NCBI GenBank assembly: GCA_023444445.1
Contig: JAEXMK010000169.1
Coordinates: 1-19,989, forward strand
Source of the DNA: Pseudomonadota bacterium
GTDB lineage: Bacteria; Pseudomonadota; Alphaproteobacteria; Rhizobiales; Rhizobiaceae
Reading direction: 5' to 3'
Length of the DNA stretch: 19,989 nucleotides
A program made the position numbers and the translations under genes. Within the stretch, counting starts at the first letter, position 1. Every line of letters starts with the position of its first letter. Below are positions 4,194 through 18,992 of the stretch, in pieces. Below the pieces are notes generated by a model that did not search any database, was not told where the DNA came from, and saw only the letters and a program-made list of their open reading frames with translations.

Positions 4194-4219
4194 AACGGCA
4201 TGGTTGTTAGAATAGTTCC
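4194..4219 (-). promoter_or_regulatory. EcfG-type promoter for the PRC-barrel gene
   Basis: On the minus strand GGAAC (4219-4215), a 17-nt spacer and CGTT (4197-4194) match the general stress sigma consensus exactly. The start codon lies about 78 nt downstream. Confidence 0.75.
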
Positions 4220-4352: not shown

Positions 4353-6071
4353 ATGCCTCCACCCGGCAACAGACTGAAAGACATGTTCTCGACTTTGCGT
4401 CGGCGCAGCGGAAATTTTTTCCCCACGGCTTCCATCGGCACGTATCTGGTGGTGATGGCAACCGTTATCACGTTGCCGCTCATCCTTTTCGTCGGCTATC
4501 TCATGCTGCGCCTCGAGGCAGAAAAACGCGACGACTTGCAGCGGGAAACCATCGAGGACGTGCGGGTGGTCTCCCGCAACATCGACCGTCGCCTTCAGGA
4601 AATCTCCACGTCACTCAATCTCCTGTCGCAATTCCCCGAGCTTGAGAGTGGCAACCTCGCAGCGTTTCAGGGACGCGTTGCCGAAAGCCTTAAACGGGAG
4701 GGCCTTTTTGCCCTTCTCGTCACCAAGGATGGTCAGCAGCGCCTTAACACGCGCGTTCCCTACGGCGAACCGATGAGCAACGTGCCTGCTGAAGCACACC
4801 TGGCCAAAGCGATTGACTCCCGCCGCATCACCGTCTCTGACCTGTTTTTTGGTTCCACCAGCAAGGAATGGGTATTCAATGTTACCTTGCCGCTCGATCC
4901 GGACCTGAGATCGGCTGGAGACGCCTTGATACTGACGCAGAATGCAAGTGATCTCGGCCGCCTTATTCCAACGGAAAACCTGCCTCGCCACTGGGCGGTC
5001 GCCATCATTGATGGCACCAACCGCGTTGTTGTTTCCAGCGAACCCGATCAGGTTCAGGTCGGGCAGCCGTTCATGTCCCCGGAAATCCTTTCGCAAATGC
5101 AGGCCTTCAGCGGCAATTTCTTCGACGGCAAGGGAAATCTCTACGCCTACGCACAACTGCCGGGTTGGCAATGGAAGACGGTGATGTGGGGACCGCTCGC
5201 CGCAAGCCAGGCGGCGCTGATCGACACCTGGCGGCAGATGATGATCGGCAGTCTTGTGCTGGTGCTGATCGCCATCGGCGGCGCCTATCTCGTCGGCCGG
5301 CAATTGCGCAGCTCCATCCGCGATCTCACCCACATGGCCGAGCGAATCGGTGAAGGCGAGATCGTGGCACCCGTCGATACCAAGATAAAGGAGGCGAACC
5401 AGGTCGCCATCGCCCTCTCCAACGCCTCCTTCGACAGAAGCCAGTCGGAGGAGCGTTTGCAGCTGCTTCTGCACGAACTGGTGCACCGTTCCAAAAACAT
5501 TCTGACCCTGGTTCAGGCGATGATACGGCAGCTGGGCCGCGAGAATAAGAGCATTCCGGAATTCCAGAAAGAGGTGGACCACCGCCTGCGCGGCCTTGGA
5601 ATGTCGATCCGCGCTCTTGCGGAAGTTCAATGGCAGGGCCTGCCGATCCGCAAGCTGATCGAAACCCATCTCGATGTTTTCGGCACGGTGGCGGAACGCT
5701 TCAGACTGGAAGGCGACGATTTCATGCTGTCTCCTGAAGCGGCACAGAACTTCGGGCTCGTGGTGCATGAGCTGACGACGAATTCCATCAAATATGGCGC
5801 ACTTTCGGTTCCGCCAGGAAAAATAACCGTCAGCTGGAAAGCGCTCGAAAAAGACGGCCGGCAGATGCTCCATCTCATCTGGACGGAGACAGGCGGGCCG
5901 CCCGCAACCGAGCCGAGTCGCAAGGGCTTCGGCACCACGGTCATCAAACGCCACGCGGAAGGCGCGTTCGGCGGGAACGTCATAACCCAGTATCGCGAGA
6001 CCGGCTTCGAATGGTCGCTGGAAGCGCCGATGCGCTATTTCATCCCAAAGCGACCCGAGCAGACACACTAA
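4353..6071 (+). CDS. Membrane-bound HWE-family sensor histidine kinase with HAMP domain
   Basis: A 572-residue inner-membrane kinase. A transmembrane helix at about 28-50 and a second at about 295-315 enclose an extracytoplasmic sensor of roughly 245 residues, probably a Cache-type fold. A HAMP-like linker follows (about 315-360, LTHMAERIGEGE), then an HWE kinase core: phospho-accepting His378 in ELVHRSKN, the N box ELTTNSIKYGALS, the diagnostic W-x-E as WTETGGPP, and a G box GFGTTVIKRHAEG. HWE kinases commonly phosphorylate PhyR-type regulators, so the nearby phyR is the plausible partner; that link is inference. The start at 4353 has GGAG 8 nt upstream. I see no EcfG-type promoter in front of it, unlike the second kinase. 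The ligand cannot be read from the sequence. Confidence 0.9.
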   Translation: MPPPGNRLKDMFSTLRRRSGNFFPTASIGTYLVVMATVITLPLILFVGYLMLRLEAEKRDDLQRETIEDVRVVSRNIDRRLQEISTSLNLLSQFPELESGNLAAFQGRVAESLKREGLFALLVTKDGQQRLNTRVPYGEPMSNVPAEAHLAKAIDSRRITVSDLFFGSTSKEWVFNVTLPLDPDLRSAGDALILTQNASDLGRLIPTENLPRHWAVAIIDGTNRVVVSSEPDQVQVGQPFMSPEILSQMQAFSGNFFDGKGNLYAYAQLPGWQWKTVMWGPLAASQAALIDTWRQMMIGSLVLVLIAIGGAYLVGRQLRSSIRDLTHMAERIGEGEIVAPVDTKIKEANQVAIALSNASFDRSQSEERLQLLLHELVHRSKNILTLVQAMIRQLGRENKSIPEFQKEVDHRLRGLGMSIRALAEVQWQGLPIRKLIETHLDVFGTVAERFRLEGDDFMLSPEAAQNFGLVVHELTTNSIKYGALSVPPGKITVSWKALEKDGRQMLHLIWTETGGPPATEPSRKGFGTTVIKRHAEGAFGGNVITQYRETGFEWSLEAPMRYFIPKRPEQTH

Positions 6072-6127
6072 GGCTCCTGCACCCGACAGCTAAAATTTGG
6101 CGATTATCAAAAAAAATGCATGTCGCG

Positions 6128-6152
6128 GGAACCGAACGCTTCGGCGTGCATT
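6128..6152 (+). promoter_or_regulatory. Near-consensus EcfG-type promoter in front of a candidate small RNA
   Basis: GGAAC (6128-6132), a 16-nt spacer, then CATT (6149-6152), one base away from CGTT. The octamer GCATTCTT sits at exactly the same distance from GGAAC in the nepR promoter. No protein gene follows on this strand before 8344. Confidence 0.5.
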
Positions 6153-6157
6153 CTTAC

Positions 6158-6274
6158 TGCAGGCCAAGCAATTCCCCCGTCCCCGCCTGAAGCTTGGTCT
6201 GAATATAAACGGGTTTCACCCCTGAAAACCCGTGATAAAAATAGCACGGCTCTCCCATGGGCCGTGCTTTTTTT
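6158..6274 (+). ncRNA. Candidate stress-induced small RNA with three C-rich hairpin loops
   Basis: About 115 nt between the membrane kinase and the convergent second kinase, with promoter and terminator but no convincing reading frame. Stem 1 pairs CCAAGC (6164-6169) with GCTTGG (6192-6197) around a 22-nt loop containing CCCCCGTCCCC. Stem 2 pairs ACGGGTTT (6209-6216) with AAACCCGT (6226-6233) around CACCCCTGA. Stem 3 is the terminator, whose loop exposes TCCCAT. C-rich loops that could pair with Shine-Dalgarno sequences are a known feature of alphaproteobacterial small RNAs such as the alpha-r14 family and Caulobacter GsrN; I do not recognise this one as a member of either. The 5' end is inferred from the promoter. 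It could instead be a processed 3' UTR of the upstream kinase. Confidence 0.55.
6243..6274 (+). terminator. Strong Rho-independent terminator, possibly bidirectional
   Basis: AGCACGGC (6243-6250) pairs with GCCGTGCT (6261-6268), followed by seven T (6268-6274). On the minus strand the same stem is followed by ATTTTTA, so it may also end the convergent kinase transcript, whose stop codon is at 6326. Confidence 0.85.
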
Positions 6275-6325
6275 GTCTCGGGCTTGGAAACGGTGCGTGG
6301 CACCATTCACGCTGGCCGTCCCTTT

Positions 6326-7309
6326 TCAGAAAGCTGTGCCGTCACCCGAAGGGAACGTCAGGCGGTAAACGATCCGCTCGGGCGTTAGCTGGTATTCCGC
6401 ACTGCCGCCGAGAGCAGAAGGCACCACCTTTTCCAGCACCACGCTGCCGAAACTGCCGTGCCTGGCCGCCGCCGGCTCCTTCGATGGCATCATCGGCTCG
6501 TTCCACTCGACGATATAAAAATCACCGTCCTGACGACACTGGAGAGAGATCGGCGGGTGGTAGGCCAGATTCCCGCTGTGGCTGACCGTATTGACGACCA
6601 GCTCATGGAAGGCGAGCCCGATATAAAGCGCGCCATTCGGATTGAGCAGCAGGTTTTCGCCTTCCATATGGATGAGATTCGGATATTCCGGCACATAAAG
6701 ATCGAATTGCTGGCGCAGAAGCTCGAATATGCGCGCACCCCGCCAGTCGGAATCCGTAATGAGATCCTGGCTCTGGGCAAGGGCATGCAATCGGCCGCGG
6801 AACTTGCGCAGAAAATCATCCTTGGTGAGGCTAAAACGGGCCGTCTGGCCCGCAAGGCTCTGGATGATCGCCAAGAGGTTTTTGGAGCGGTGACTGACTT
6901 CGCGCAAAAGTGAGCGCAGAAGCTGCTCGCGTCGCCTTTCCGCCGTCACTTCGCGGATGGTGGTCTTCATCACCACCTGGTTCGACTGGTTGAAAGTGGA
7001 ATGGACCTGAAACTGGAAGACACGATCATTGCCGGCATTGACTTCCAGCATGCCACGGCTGCCCGCAGTGCTCATGTCCTTCTTCAGCTCGGCAAGTCGG
7101 GCAGAGAGCTCGACGCCGAAAAGACTTTCATCGGTTGGAAGGGAATCGGCCGGAAGTTTCCAGACATCCGGCAGATTGGCCACGAATATGTAGTCGCGGT
7201 TCCAGTCCTGCAGCATGACTGTCTCACCCGAATCGAGCAAGGCGAGAACGAGCGAATCGTGAAGTTCGCTTTCGTCCCTCTCCGCGTTATGCCATGCCAG
7301 CCGATGCAA
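6326..7309 (-). CDS. Cytosolic PAS-like HWE-family histidine kinase of the stress locus
   Basis: A 327-residue soluble kinase downstream of phyR on the same strand. An N-terminal PAS-like sensor (about 15-125, with VMLQDWNRDYIFVANLPDVW) precedes the kinase core: phospho-accepting His140 in EVSHRSKN, an N box with Asn in HELVVNTVSHSG, the W-x-E signature as VEWNEP, and a divergent G box near the end (HGSFGSVVLEK). It has no transmembrane helix. The frame is open upstream to 7375. I place the start at TTG 7309 because AAGGAG lies 6 nt before it (7316-7321) and because an EcfG promoter overlaps 7360-7384, which would put the upstream starts outside the transcript. It likely phosphorylates PhyR, as neighbouring HWE kinases do in other alphaproteobacteria. 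Confidence 0.85.
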   Translation of the reverse strand: MHRLAWHNAERDESELHDSLVLALLDSGETVMLQDWNRDYIFVANLPDVWKLPADSLPTDESLFGVELSARLAELKKDMSTAGSRGMLEVNAGNDRVFQFQVHSTFNQSNQVVMKTTIREVTAERRREQLLRSLLREVSHRSKNLLAIIQSLAGQTARFSLTKDDFLRKFRGRLHALAQSQDLITDSDWRGARIFELLRQQFDLYVPEYPNLIHMEGENLLLNPNGALYIGLAFHELVVNTVSHSGNLAYHPPISLQCRQDGDFYIVEWNEPMMPSKEPAAARHGSFGSVVLEKVVPSALGGSAEYQLTPERIVYRLTFPSGDGTAF

Positions 7310-7359: not shown

Positions 7360-7384
7360 AACGCCCGGGCACCAAACTGGTTCC
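7360..7384 (-). promoter_or_regulatory. EcfG-type promoter for the cytosolic HWE kinase
   Basis: On the minus strand GGAAC (7384-7380), a 16-nt spacer and CGTT (7363-7360) match the consensus exactly. It lies in the gap after the phyR stop, so the kinase can be expressed separately from phyR. The leader to TTG 7309 would be about 45 nt. Confidence 0.75.
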
Positions 7385-7410: not shown

Positions 7411-8205
7411 TCACGCGGCGACGCGTGAGCTTTCGTTGAAAAACAGCGCCTGGCTGATGAGCGCTTTCACCATGTCCGGGTTGAACGGCTTCGTCACAAG
7501 GAAGGTCGGCTCCGGCCGCTCGCCTGTCAAAAGACGTTCGGGGAAAGCCGTGATGAAGATCACCGGGAGGGTGGTCATCTGCAGAATGTCCCTCATCGCA
7601 TCGAGACCGGAACTGCCGTCGGCGAGCTGGATATCGGCAAGGATCATCTTGGGCTGGGTGCGATGGAAGAGATCGAGCGCTTCCGTATGGGTGCGGGCGA
7701 TGCCTGTGACGCGGTGGCCGAGATCGGTGACCATCTGCTCGATATCCATGGCAATCAGAGGTTCGTCCTCGATGATCATGATATCGGTTGCCACCTGCCT
7801 TGCAATTTCAGAGGCGGCCTCATCGATCAGCTTGCCGACCTGGTCTTCGGACACCTTCAGAACCTCTGCGGTTTCCGATGGCGTGAACTCTTCGACAGTC
7901 GTCAAGAGGAAAGCCTGACGGGCAAGCGCCGGCACGGCGGAGAGGTTCGCGGAGGCGCGTTTTTCCCATCCCGACAGGTTTTCGTCGGTCTTAATATTGA
8001 TCGTCACGGAACTAAAGATCGATACGAACAATTGATAGAGCGAAACACGATCGTTGCTAGTCTGCGGAAAAATGCTGATATCCGCGATCAGAGCTTCGAG
8101 TGTGGCGGCAACATAGGCATCGCCAGTCGATTGTGAGCCGCAAACAGCACGCGCGAACCTGCGTAGATATGGCAGGTGCGGTGCGATGCGTGTAGAAACT
8201 GACAT
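7411..8205 (-). CDS. phyR: PhyR, anti-anti-sigma response regulator of the general stress response
   Basis: A 264-residue protein in which residues 1-135 are a sigma-factor-like domain (sigma2/sigma4 mimic) and residues 140-255 a receiver domain. Receiver residues seen are the acidic pair in IIEDEP, phospho-acceptor Asp191 in MILADIQLADG, and Lys239 in TKPFNP. When phosphorylated, PhyR exposes the sigma-like domain and captures NepR, freeing EcfG (established for the family). The start at 8205 is chosen for AAGGGGAG upstream; an upstream ATG in the frame at 8262 lies before the -10 box and would be untranscribed. It is divergent from nepR-ecfG and preceded by a perfect EcfG promoter, so it is under positive feedback. 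Confidence 0.97.
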   Translation of the reverse strand: MSVSTRIAPHLPYLRRFARAVCGSQSTGDAYVAATLEALIADISIFPQTSNDRVSLYQLFVSIFSSVTINIKTDENLSGWEKRASANLSAVPALARQAFLLTTVEEFTPSETAEVLKVSEDQVGKLIDEAASEIARQVATDIMIIEDEPLIAMDIEQMVTDLGHRVTGIARTHTEALDLFHRTQPKMILADIQLADGSSGLDAMRDILQMTTLPVIFITAFPERLLTGERPEPTFLVTKPFNPDMVKALISQALFFNESSRVAA

Positions 8206-8251
8206 GGAATTCTCCCCTTTCATGCGGTCTGCAACGCAAACCCACGATATC

Positions 8252-8277
8252 AACGCGCGCATCGCAAAAAAAGTTCC
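8252..8277 (-). promoter_or_regulatory. EcfG-type promoter for phyR
   Basis: On the minus strand GGAAC (8277-8273), a 17-nt spacer and CGTT (8255-8252) match the consensus exactly. Its -35 forms a perfect 6-bp inverted repeat (8273-8278 with 8285-8290) with the -35 of the divergent nepR promoter. Confidence 0.85.
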
Positions 8278-8285
8278 GAACTGCC

Positions 8286-8310
8286 GGAACTATTTTTTTT
8301 ACCGCGCATT
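8286..8310 (+). promoter_or_regulatory. EcfG-type promoter for nepR-ecfG (near consensus)
   Basis: GGAAC (8286-8290), a 16-nt spacer rich in T, then CATT (8307-8310) instead of CGTT. Only 8 bp separate the two divergent -35 boxes. Autoregulation of nepR-ecfG by EcfG is usual in this group. Confidence 0.65.
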
Positions 8311-8343: not shown

Positions 8344-8550
8344 ATGAGCATGTTTCAGTCGGACCAAGATCAGCCGGATAATTCGGCGCCGCCCCAGGTT
8401 CCACAATCCGGGCGGGCCGTGATTTCCCGTAAGCTCCGAGAGCTTTATGATGCCGTTCAGGATGAAGGCATCCCTGACAAATTCCTCGACCTTCTCGAAA
8501 AACTCGATGAAGCCGAAAGCAAAGCCAAATTGAAGGCTTCGGGGGAATGA
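8344..8550 (+). CDS. nepR: NepR anti-sigma factor
   Basis: A 68-residue protein. A disordered polar N-terminus (1-25) is followed by the conserved NepR core: helix 1 ISRKLRELYDAVQDEGIPD, then helix 2 FLDLLEKLDEAE. NepR binds EcfG and holds it inactive until phosphorylated PhyR takes NepR away (known for the family). The length and position match NepR in other alphaproteobacteria. Its stop TGA overlaps the ecfG start (ATGA), which indicates translational coupling and fixed stoichiometry of sigma and anti-sigma. The ribosome site is AAGGAA about 12 nt upstream, rather distant. Confidence 0.95.
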   Translation: MSMFQSDQDQPDNSAPPQVPQSGRAVISRKLRELYDAVQDEGIPDKFLDLLEKLDEAESKAKLKASGE

Positions 8551-9116
8551 TGGCGAAAGAGCCTGAGCAGACGGATTACAATTTCAAACGGGAAATGCTG
8601 GCGGCACTGCCGAACCTGCGCGCCTTCGCGATTTCGCTCATCCGTTCGAGGGATCGTGCAGACGACCTCGTGCAGGACACAATCATGAAGGCCTGGGCCA
8701 AACAGGACAGCTTTCAACCCGGAACCAACATGCGCGCTTGGCTGGTGACGATCCTGCGCAACGAATTCTACAGCCAGATCCGTAAGTCGGGCCGTGAAGT
8801 GCAGGATTCCGAAGGGGTTTACACCTCGCGCCTTTCCGTTCCGCCGGAACAGCATGGTTCGGTGGACCTTCAGGATTTTCGCTCGGCATTGGCTAAACTG
8901 CCTGACGACCAGCGTGAAGCCATCCTCCTGATCGGCGCCTCGGGTTTTGCTTATGAGGAAGCCGCCGAAATCTGCGGCTGCCCGGTCGGCACCATCAAGA
9001 GCCGCGTCAGCCGCGCAAGACTGCGCCTGCAGGAATTGCTTGGCATCGAAAACGAAAACGAGTTTGGACCGGATGCGCAGATGAGCGCCGTCACGGCCGC
9101 TGCAACGGTGCGCTGA
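8547..9116 (+). CDS. ecfG: EcfG general stress response sigma factor
   Basis: A 189-residue ECF sigma factor of the EcfG group. The sigma2 region holds DDLVQDTIMKAW and NMRAWLVTILRNEFY (about 37-80), for core binding and -10 recognition. The sigma4 region holds LAKLPDDQREAILLI and the helix-turn-helix EEAAEICGCPVGTIKSRVSR (about 115-160), for the GGAAC -35. Two ATGs adjoin (8547 and 8550). The first overlaps the nepR stop; the second has better spacing from GGGGG (8541-8545), so the true start may be one codon later. The translation start region is perfectly complementary to a loop of the candidate small RNA at 6171-6179. A terminator follows at 9137. Confidence 0.96.
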   Translation: MMAKEPEQTDYNFKREMLAALPNLRAFAISLIRSRDRADDLVQDTIMKAWAKQDSFQPGTNMRAWLVTILRNEFYSQIRKSGREVQDSEGVYTSRLSVPPEQHGSVDLQDFRSALAKLPDDQREAILLIGASGFAYEEAAEICGCPVGTIKSRVSRARLRLQELLGIENENEFGPDAQMSAVTAAATVR

Positions 9117-18070: not shown

Positions 18071-18089
18071 AAGTTGATGCGAGAATGGA

Positions 18090-18992
18090 ATGGATCCGCG
18101 CAGAAGACTGGTTCCTGATATCGTTACCCTGCAGGCGTTCGAATGCGCGGCACGGCATGGCAATTTTACGCGCGCTGCCGAAGAACTTAACCTCACCCAG
18201 AGCGCGGTGAGCCGGCAGATCGGCGAACTGGAAGCGCAGACAGGAATGCAGCTTTTCGAGCGCATCCGCAGACGGGTGGTGCTTTCGGAAGCGGGGCGCA
18301 AATTCCTGCCCGATGTGCGGCGGCTGTTACAGCAGTCCGAGCAACTGATGGTGCGTGCGGTTTCTGCTGGCACCTCGCATGCATCGCTTTCCGTCGCGAC
18401 GCTGCCGACGTTTGGAAGCCGCTGGCTGATGCCGCGCCTCTCCCGCTTCATCGACGCCAATCCTGATATGACGATCACGATCGGCTCGCGCTCGCACCCT
18501 TTCGATTTCGATGAGGAAGGTTTCGATCTCGCCATTCATTACGGACAGCCAATCTGGGCGCATGGCACCTGCACCTTCTTATGCAATGAGGTGATCGTGC
18601 CGGTTGCCAGCCCTTCCCTGCTTCGCCGCGCCGGCGTGAACCGGGTGCAGGATCTGGCCGGACAGCCGCTGCTGCATGTCACCACCCGGCCGAAGCTCTG
18701 GACGGAATGGCTGGAAATGAACGGTGTGACGGCTGACAATGCTTATCAGGGTAGCCGTTTCGACCAGTTTTCGATGATCATCGAAGCCGCCGCGAGCGGC
18801 ATCGGTTTTGCCCTCCTGCCGAGATATCTCATCGAGGCGGAGCTTGCCTCCGGCCGCCTCAAAATCGTTTTTGACATCCCCCTGCAGACTGACAAGAGCT
18901 ACTACGTCGCCTTGCCGGAAGGACGGCAGGACAATGTGCTTGCTCGCGCCTTTCAGGCCTGGCTGCTCGATCAGGTCGGCAAGCCGGTTTAA
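18090..18992 (+). CDS. LysR-type transcriptional regulator (GcvA-like), divergent from amaB
   Basis: A 300-residue LysR-type protein. The winged helix-turn-helix lies at about 8-65 (LQAFECAARHGNFTRAAEEL, then TQSAVSRQIGELE), and the effector-binding domain at about 95-295. The pattern FDLAIHYG and RWLMPRL resembles the GcvA-like branch. It is transcribed away from amaB with a gap of about 200 bp, the usual arrangement for a regulator and its target, so it likely controls lysine or pipecolate degradation. The ATG at 18090 is the in-frame start; an ATG 5 nt earlier is in another frame. The effector is not readable from the sequence. Confidence 0.9.
   Translation: MDPRRRLVPDIVTLQAFECAARHGNFTRAAEELNLTQSAVSRQIGELEAQTGMQLFERIRRRVVLSEAGRKFLPDVRRLLQQSEQLMVRAVSAGTSHASLSVATLPTFGSRWLMPRLSRFIDANPDMTITIGSRSHPFDFDEEGFDLAIHYGQPIWAHGTCTFLCNEVIVPVASPSLLRRAGVNRVQDLAGQPLLHVTTRPKLWTEWLEMNGVTADNAYQGSRFDQFSMIIEAAASGIGFALLPRYLIEAELASGRLKIVFDIPLQTDKSYYVALPEGRQDNVLARAFQAWLLDQVGKPV

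Follow-up and report, generated by a model that had tools for sequence, protein, structure and literature searches.

The window examined here, a DNA stretch of 19,989 nucleotides, carries a general stress locus, and it raises the question of whether the gap between two convergent kinase genes holds an RNA gene in its own right and, if so, how such an RNA may act. From the letters alone, the original prediction placed in this gap an EcfG promoter, about 115 nt of noncoding DNA and a strong terminator, and all of these proved to lie there. The promoter (6128..6152, + strand) consists of GGAAC at 6128-6132, a 16-nt spacer and CATT at 6149-6152. Assuming that transcription begins 6-8 nt beyond the -10 element, the predicted small RNA would span 6159..6274 on the + strand and measure about 111-117 nt.

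The predicted RNA is organized as three hairpins, all on the + strand. Hairpin 1 (6164..6197) has the stem CCAAGC/GCTTGG (6164-6169 with 6192-6197) and a C-rich loop of 22 nt (6170-6191), which reads AATTCCCCCGTCCCCGCCTGAA in the window and has the core CCCCGTCCCCGCC. In the predicted fold this stem extends to as many as 10 pairs, one of them G-U, and weak inner pairs form within the loop; predicted folds and alignment nevertheless place an exposed C-rich loop in this 5' hairpin. Hairpin 2 (6209..6233) has an 8-bp stem, ACGGGTTT/AAACCCGT (6209-6216 with 6226-6233), around the loop CACCCCTGA (6217-6225). Hairpin 3 (6243..6274) is the intrinsic terminator, with a stem of 10 pairs including one G-U (6243-6252 with 6259-6268), the loop TCCCAT and a T run. 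All three stems of the original prediction are thus present, but the lengths of 6 and 8 bp given there are minima, as stem 1 and the terminator reach 10 pairs. The 131 nt at 6150-6280 fold at -55.5 kcal/mol, as compared to -28.3 (sd 3.3) for shuffled sequences (z -8.2; none of 200 shuffles as good), and the fold of 6159-6274 alone gives z -7.4.

Rfam returned no match for this RNA at gathering score. The best weak match was SbrA of Listeria (RF01489), which likewise has CCCC in a loop before the terminator. Its score of 24.1 bits is, however, far below the gathering score of 45, and Listeria belongs to a distant phylum. SbrA depends on sigma B; the resemblance is at most convergence. Among alphaproteobacterial small RNAs, CuckooRNA/alpha-r14 and CcsR, of the CCUCCUCCC type, have C-rich loops that are thought to face ribosome binding sites. 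By reading of the sequence, the CCUCCUCCC motif is absent from 6159-6274.

The genes around the gap are those expected of a general stress locus. Kinase 1 (4353..6071, + strand), the upstream neighbour, lies outside the RNA gene and encodes an HWE histidine kinase with a dCache-like part that falls below the Pfam cut-off. Kinase 2 (6326..7309, - strand), also an HWE histidine kinase, is the convergent neighbour and takes the position of R. etli tcrY; its probable start, TTG at 7309, was placed by the start in L010 and by AAGGAG upstream. It is followed by phyR (7411..8262, - strand; domains PhyR_sigma2, PhyR_sigma-like and Response_reg; start codon uncertain), whose product is 99% identical to PhyR of Agrobacterium leguminum (L001). 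On this basis we take the stretch to be Agrobacterium DNA. On the + strand, nepR (8344-8550) was read by eye from the sequence, and ecfG (8547-9116) follows it, overlapping its end. Among the Agrobacterium-clade loci that we fetched by phyR, kinase 2 adjoins the RNA in 14/14 and kinase 1 in 13/14. Across all 80 fetched loci, kinase 1 was found in 13, all of the Agrobacterium clade; it is missing in L010.

The promoter is not the only one of its type in the window. The pattern GGAACN15-18SRTT occurs seven times against 2.8 expected, with at least seven occurrences in 5 of 200 shuffles. One site lies before nepR-ecfG (8286-8310, + strand) and shares the -10 element CATT with the small RNA. Others lie before an ORF at 1474 (1389-1413, + strand) and, on the - strand, before a PRC-barrel gene (4194-4219), kinase 2 (7360-7384) and phyR (8252-8277). 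A further - strand site (18089-18115) has a spacer of 18 nt and lies across the beginning of a lysR gene, about 145 nt before a minus-strand aldehyde dehydrogenase gene; it may be a chance occurrence. Judging by these sites, the EcfG regulon seems to occupy the locus as a block.

We sought the RNA in a comparison set of 80 fetched loci, 14 of the Agrobacterium clade and 66 others (L015-L080). It is present beside kinase 2 in all 14 Agrobacterium-clade loci. A covariance model built from these loci and the window (R1) matched 39/39 Agrobacterium-genus genomes at E up to 1e-5, model E-values being rough throughout; on the window, itself part of the building set, the match spans 6160-6274 at 116 bits. 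In one genome (G256) the RNA lies on the second replicon (contig C2, 2.08 Mb), at 1281787-1281900 on the minus strand, and ten listed genomes of the genus, this one included, have the match on a contig of 2.08-2.39 Mb.

The promoter has been kept along with the RNA. GGAAC-N16-[CT][AG]TT stands upstream in 37/37 distinct Agrobacterium sequences (from 51 records), always with a 16-nt spacer and ending 9-10 nt before GCCA of stem 1, while the -10 element varies between CATT (17), CGTT (15) and TGTT (5). The spacer sequence and the flanks around the promoter are unconserved. As a single motif such a promoter would be weak evidence; it is strong because it is kept in every one of these sequences.

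The structure shows a comparable constraint. In an alignment of 15 sequences (A2), 99.7% of 359 cells fall in standard pairs and 4 of 24 pairs have changed on both sides, a combination of pairing fraction and both-side changes that none of 500 shuffles reached. When the pairs are shifted by 1-3 columns, pairing falls to 26-51%. Eighteen of the 24 pairs are invariant, and the evidence is thus carried by few pairs. The measure 'further standard pair types' was reached by shuffles in 500/500 cases for A2, 198/500 for A3 and 24 for A5. In the larger alignment A5 (35 distinct rows), 99.5% of cells are paired and eight pairs have changed on both sides, although this alignment leans towards the model because it was fitted to it. 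Hairpin 2 alone has both-side changes at 5/8 pairs among the 35 distinct sequences. Within the loops, A2 shows no variation in CCCGTCCCCGCCT (loop 1) or CCCCTG (loop 2). This pattern of compensatory stem changes around fixed loop cores is what the original prediction had expected of a covariance search in Rhizobiaceae. Its third C-rich loop did not hold up equally well: loops 1 and 2 are conserved and C-rich, but the terminator loop is variable and not C-rich in many relatives, and we therefore count two conserved C-rich loops rather than three. An extreme case is a genome (G271, locus L128) whose stems are largely rewritten, yet whose loops 1 and 2 read ACCCCGTCCCCCG and CCCGCCCTAA within a like fold.

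Two genomes of the genus, G269 (L132) and G270 (L130), carry a second, shorter copy of the RNA that lacks hairpin 2; a separate EcfG-like promoter precedes it, and hairpin 1 and the terminator are present (the fold was computed for L132). Since these copies do without hairpin 2, hairpin 1 may be the active minimum, in line with Caulobacter, where the 5' part of GsrN is reported to be sufficient (PMC5869019).

Beyond Agrobacterium, we distinguished three types of RNA among the 80 loci: type A in the 14 Agrobacterium loci, type B in 34 and type C in 13, with none seen in 19. Type B occurs in Neorhizobium, Pseudorhizobium and others, and has CCCCCGTCCCCCGCCC as its loop and TCCCCCTCG as its second loop. 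Type C occurs in Rhizobium and Metarhizobium; its hairpin 1 encloses an inner hairpin and carries a C-rich sequence unlike that of the window RNA. CCCCGTCCCC of loop 1 is also found in 34/66 non-Agrobacterium loci. Three type B loci (L018, L032 and L036) have the RNA unit inverted relative to kinase 2, as the other 31 do not. Promoter and C-rich strand flip together there, which also indicates that the C-rich strand is the transcribed one. The unit appears in these loci as if moved or flipped whole.

Covariance models tie the three types together. With E up to 1, R1 found 25/34 type B RNAs; the remainder of its 45 matches comprised four type A RNAs, four of their opposite strands and 12 matches elsewhere. 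For a second model (R2) we used 22 of the 34 type B RNAs. In their alignment (A3), 98.7% of cells are paired and both sides have changed in 12 of 29 pairs, with hairpin 2 invariant. Given 13 sources, R2 produced 11 matches: the window (E 1.4e-5), 4/5 other type A sources (L001, L010, L128 and L129), 5/6 type C loci (L045, L046, L062, L070 and L078) and L119. The last had itself been fetched by R2; the same place (L231) has PhyR and EcfG homologues. The two sources missed were L006 (type A) and L080 (type C). As R2 matches both other types, type B links A and C. A third model (R3), built from the 13 type C RNAs, did not recognize the window, L001, L006 or L128; among the four type B loci that we supplied, it found only L028.

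Searches over the family, covering 247 genomes, extended this picture. R3 matched in 30 of them, and in 29/30 the fetched 1.5-kb flanks (a 3-kb stretch) contain a homologue of kinase 2, PhyR or EcfG. An EcfG-like site stands just upstream in 27/30, the exceptions under the pattern used being L231, L243 and L240. CCCC occurs in both hairpin regions of 29/30 matches, as compared to 73/6000 random windows of the same loci. We regard the match in L240 as false, since it has neither the EcfG-like site nor stress-gene neighbours. Under stricter cut-offs, R1 gave matches in 7/247 genomes (E up to 0.001), of which four were strong, and R2 in 10/247 (E up to 0.01), with three strong matches and L119 at 2.5e-9. 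Among the weak R1 and R2 matches, L085-L087 and L120-L125 were judged by eye to be chance terminators; L088 and L126 are true RNAs matched on the opposite strand, and L127 was left out. Plasmid records held no similar DNA at E up to 1e-5.

The 19 loci without such an RNA at the site comprise 17 that are Ciceribacter/Allorhizobium-like, one of Rhodobium and one of Martelella, and R2 run on the whole genomes of eight of them gave a best E-value of 0.016. All of the Ciceribacter/Allorhizobium-like loci (L030, L031, L033-L035, L052, L058, L061, L067, L069, L071-L074, L076, L077 and L079) keep phyR and kinase 2. In this group the RNA may have been either lost or changed past recognition. On the comparative evidence, the window RNA is a member of a family located next to stress genes in a sizeable portion of the Rhizobiaceae.

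Could the whole unit be nothing other than the shared 3' untranslated region or terminator of two convergent kinase genes, with neither promoter nor function of its own? The genes do converge, and since the hairpin at 6243-6268 is the only + strand terminator reported in 5900-6500, kinase 1 transcripts may run into it. Such a reading would not lead one to expect a promoter kept in all 37 distinct sequences amid unconserved flanks. It also requires a kinase gene that the RNA evidently does without: L010 retains both RNA and promoter intact with a PRC-barrel gene in place of kinase 1, and across L015-L080, where the kinase 1 query finds at most 36% identity over at most 223 residues, a related RNA is still present in 47/66 loci. 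In L018, L032 and L036, the orientation of the RNA relative to kinase 2 is even reversed. We therefore consider this explanation very improbable. Even less credible is that the region acts through an encoded small protein. An open frame of 82 codons (6120-6368) spans it, but the frame begins upstream of the promoter, and relatives show indels in loops and linkers that are not multiples of three, with pairing kept. A stand-alone small RNA gene at this site is thus very probably real, and the original call of an EcfG-type small RNA at the general stress locus is borne out by promoter conservation, covariation, the terminator and independence from kinase 1.

Small RNAs of this kind have precedents. 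In R. etli, ReC64 lies downstream of phyR-tcrY and has an EcfG1 promoter that fits its start by 5' RACE; its expression is described as abolished in ecfG1 and double mutants, and its promoter as activated by EcfG in E. coli (Jans 2013; PMC3892343). The same report gives its length as 88 from an earlier Northern analysis. Northern analysis in stationary phase detected it together with an additional, larger band (Vercruysse 2010; PMC2881028), and a further report describes raised levels in saline shock, with SigA and RpoH promoters predicted there (PMC4167512). The window RNA resembles ReC64 in being intergenic, downstream of phyR and its kinase, and in having an EcfG promoter. Moreover, the type C RNAs found at this place in Rhizobium are recognized by R2, the model that also finds the window RNA. 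ReC64 is itself probably of type C. The predicted length of about 115 nt sets the window RNA apart from the 88 reported for ReC64.

The second precedent is GsrN of Caulobacter, which has a C-rich 5' loop and activates katG by pairing with katG mRNA (Tien 2018; PMC5869019). Through BLASTn with the R. etli sequence, the same paper predicted GsrN homologues at the stress locus in R. etli, S. meliloti, B. abortus and 'Agrobacterium radiobacter'. Like GsrN, the window RNA would, judging by its promoter, belong to the small RNAs of the EcfG/sigma-T regulon; it has a C-rich 5' loop and lies near ecfG-nepR-phyR, the usual place of GsrN homologues. Unlike GsrN, for which katG pairing is established in Caulobacter, it has only a weak loop 2 fit to katG. 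The kind is therefore already known through ReC64 and the predicted GsrN homologues, and the window RNA joins it. The original label 'unannotated' thus holds for Rfam and for the available text of the papers, but not for the kind of RNA, one of the predicted GsrN homologues being that of 'Agrobacterium radiobacter'.

Earlier detection in Agrobacterium is possible. The available parts of the C58 RNA-seq and Hfq co-immunoprecipitation papers (PMC3738593, PMC4201532), supplementary lists aside, name no transcript here, and none of the five linear-chromosome entries in the C58 Northern table (PMC3738593) falls at the expected place, if G256 is C58. Among the literature matches listed, those that name ReC64 all concern R. 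etli, and no title among those listed for GsrN concerns Rhizobiaceae. Among the matches listed since 2016, only Tien 2018 brings together EcfG, PhyR, sRNA, C-rich and Rhizobium.

The ecfG ribosome binding site, CGGGGGAA (8540-8547, overlapping the nepR end), perfectly complements UUCCCCCG of loop 1, and the predicted duplex scores -22.6 against -15.4 (sd 3.5) for shuffled sequences, with 20 candidate start sites tested. We rejected ecfG as a conserved target, since the run of five G is found in only 2/15 loci (the window and L005). We also assessed katG, chosen beforehand as the known GsrN target, and found PF00141 in 8/9 genomes. The commoner form of loop 2 (CGCCCC) pairs with TCGGAGGGCGAAAT of katG at -18.3 against about -11 for shuffled sequences in 4/8 katG starts, and these four are almost one sequence. 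The other four are unpaired; their starts, chosen by a mechanical rule, are possibly misplaced, that of L158 most of all. The window and G256 carry CACCCC in loop 2, unlike the commoner loop. Among 675 starts from a crude caller, katG ranked 21st with the genome's own loop 2 and 2nd with the commoner loop, and 322nd with loop 1. We regard the katG pairing with loop 2 as a weak lead only. Pairing of the loops with ribosome binding sites is thus still conjectural: the perfect fit to loop 1 in the window is kept in 2/15 loci, and the loop 2 fit to katG is suggestive only.

These results bear on whether the RNA pairs with mRNAs at all, or instead mainly binds a protein or another RNA as a sponge, or interferes with transcription of the convergent kinase 2. 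No conserved mRNA target was found among loop-core complements in six genomes, the ecfG site in 15 loci and the katG starts. The exact loop-core complement, GGGGACGGGG, is rare, at 2-8 places per genome in the six genomes, the RNA gene included, against 22-39 for the reversed control. We draw nothing further from the counts themselves, because codon use may raise the reversed control. Both the missing target and the rarity would suit an RNA that does not pair with mRNAs. A comparable C-rich loop in GsrN, however, does pair with katG mRNA in Caulobacter, according to the available text (PMC5869019), and the strand flips relative to kinase 2, together with the changing neighbourhood, speak against an effect in cis. 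Taken together, a role without mRNA pairing seems improbable, though less so than the two readings that deny an RNA gene altogether.

In our view, the window very likely encodes an EcfG-induced, trans-acting RNA of the GsrN/ReC64 kind within the general stress regulon, whose C-rich loops pair with G-rich mRNA sites. Under stress-response control, PhyR would free EcfG, and EcfG would start transcription at or near 6159, giving a product of about 115 nt that ends in the terminator at 6268-6274. This RNA would fold into two hairpins and a terminator hairpin and present two C-rich loops, with the cores CCCCGUCCCC and CCCCUG. These would most likely pair with G-rich stretches of mRNAs, ribosome binding sites included, and the pairing would change translation or stability of the mRNA, as for GsrN in Caulobacter. 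What the genomes themselves show is the promoter, the structure with its terminator, their conservation, independence from kinase 1 and kinship with RNAs of this locus in other Rhizobiaceae; we infer the transcription of the RNA in Agrobacterium, its dependence on EcfG, its pairing with mRNAs and all of its targets.

A broader proposal, which we put forward as a speculation with the balance of probability clearly against it, is that a single ancient Rhizobiaceae family of EcfG-driven RNAs with two C-rich hairpins, absent from Rfam, forms the RNA arm of the general stress response. Such RNAs would act in the manner of an anti-Shine-Dalgarno sequence, a common set of mRNAs would have fixed the CCCCGUCCCC core in the Agrobacterium and the Neorhizobium-like lineages, and particular lineages would have added duties such as ecfG feedback (the window and L005) or katG control.

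The value of these results lies in a firm comparative case and a set of family models rather than in a new kind of system. ReC64, the predicted Rhizobiaceae GsrN homologues and the window RNA can now be treated as a single family open to testing, for which there are three covariance models. The CCCCGUCCCC core, fixed under changing stems, tells which bases to mutate, and nature offers useful variants in the short copy without hairpin 2 of two genomes and in the lineage where the RNA was not found. For Agrobacterium, a genus widely used for plant transformation, the RNA means that the general stress response probably has a post-transcriptional arm as well.
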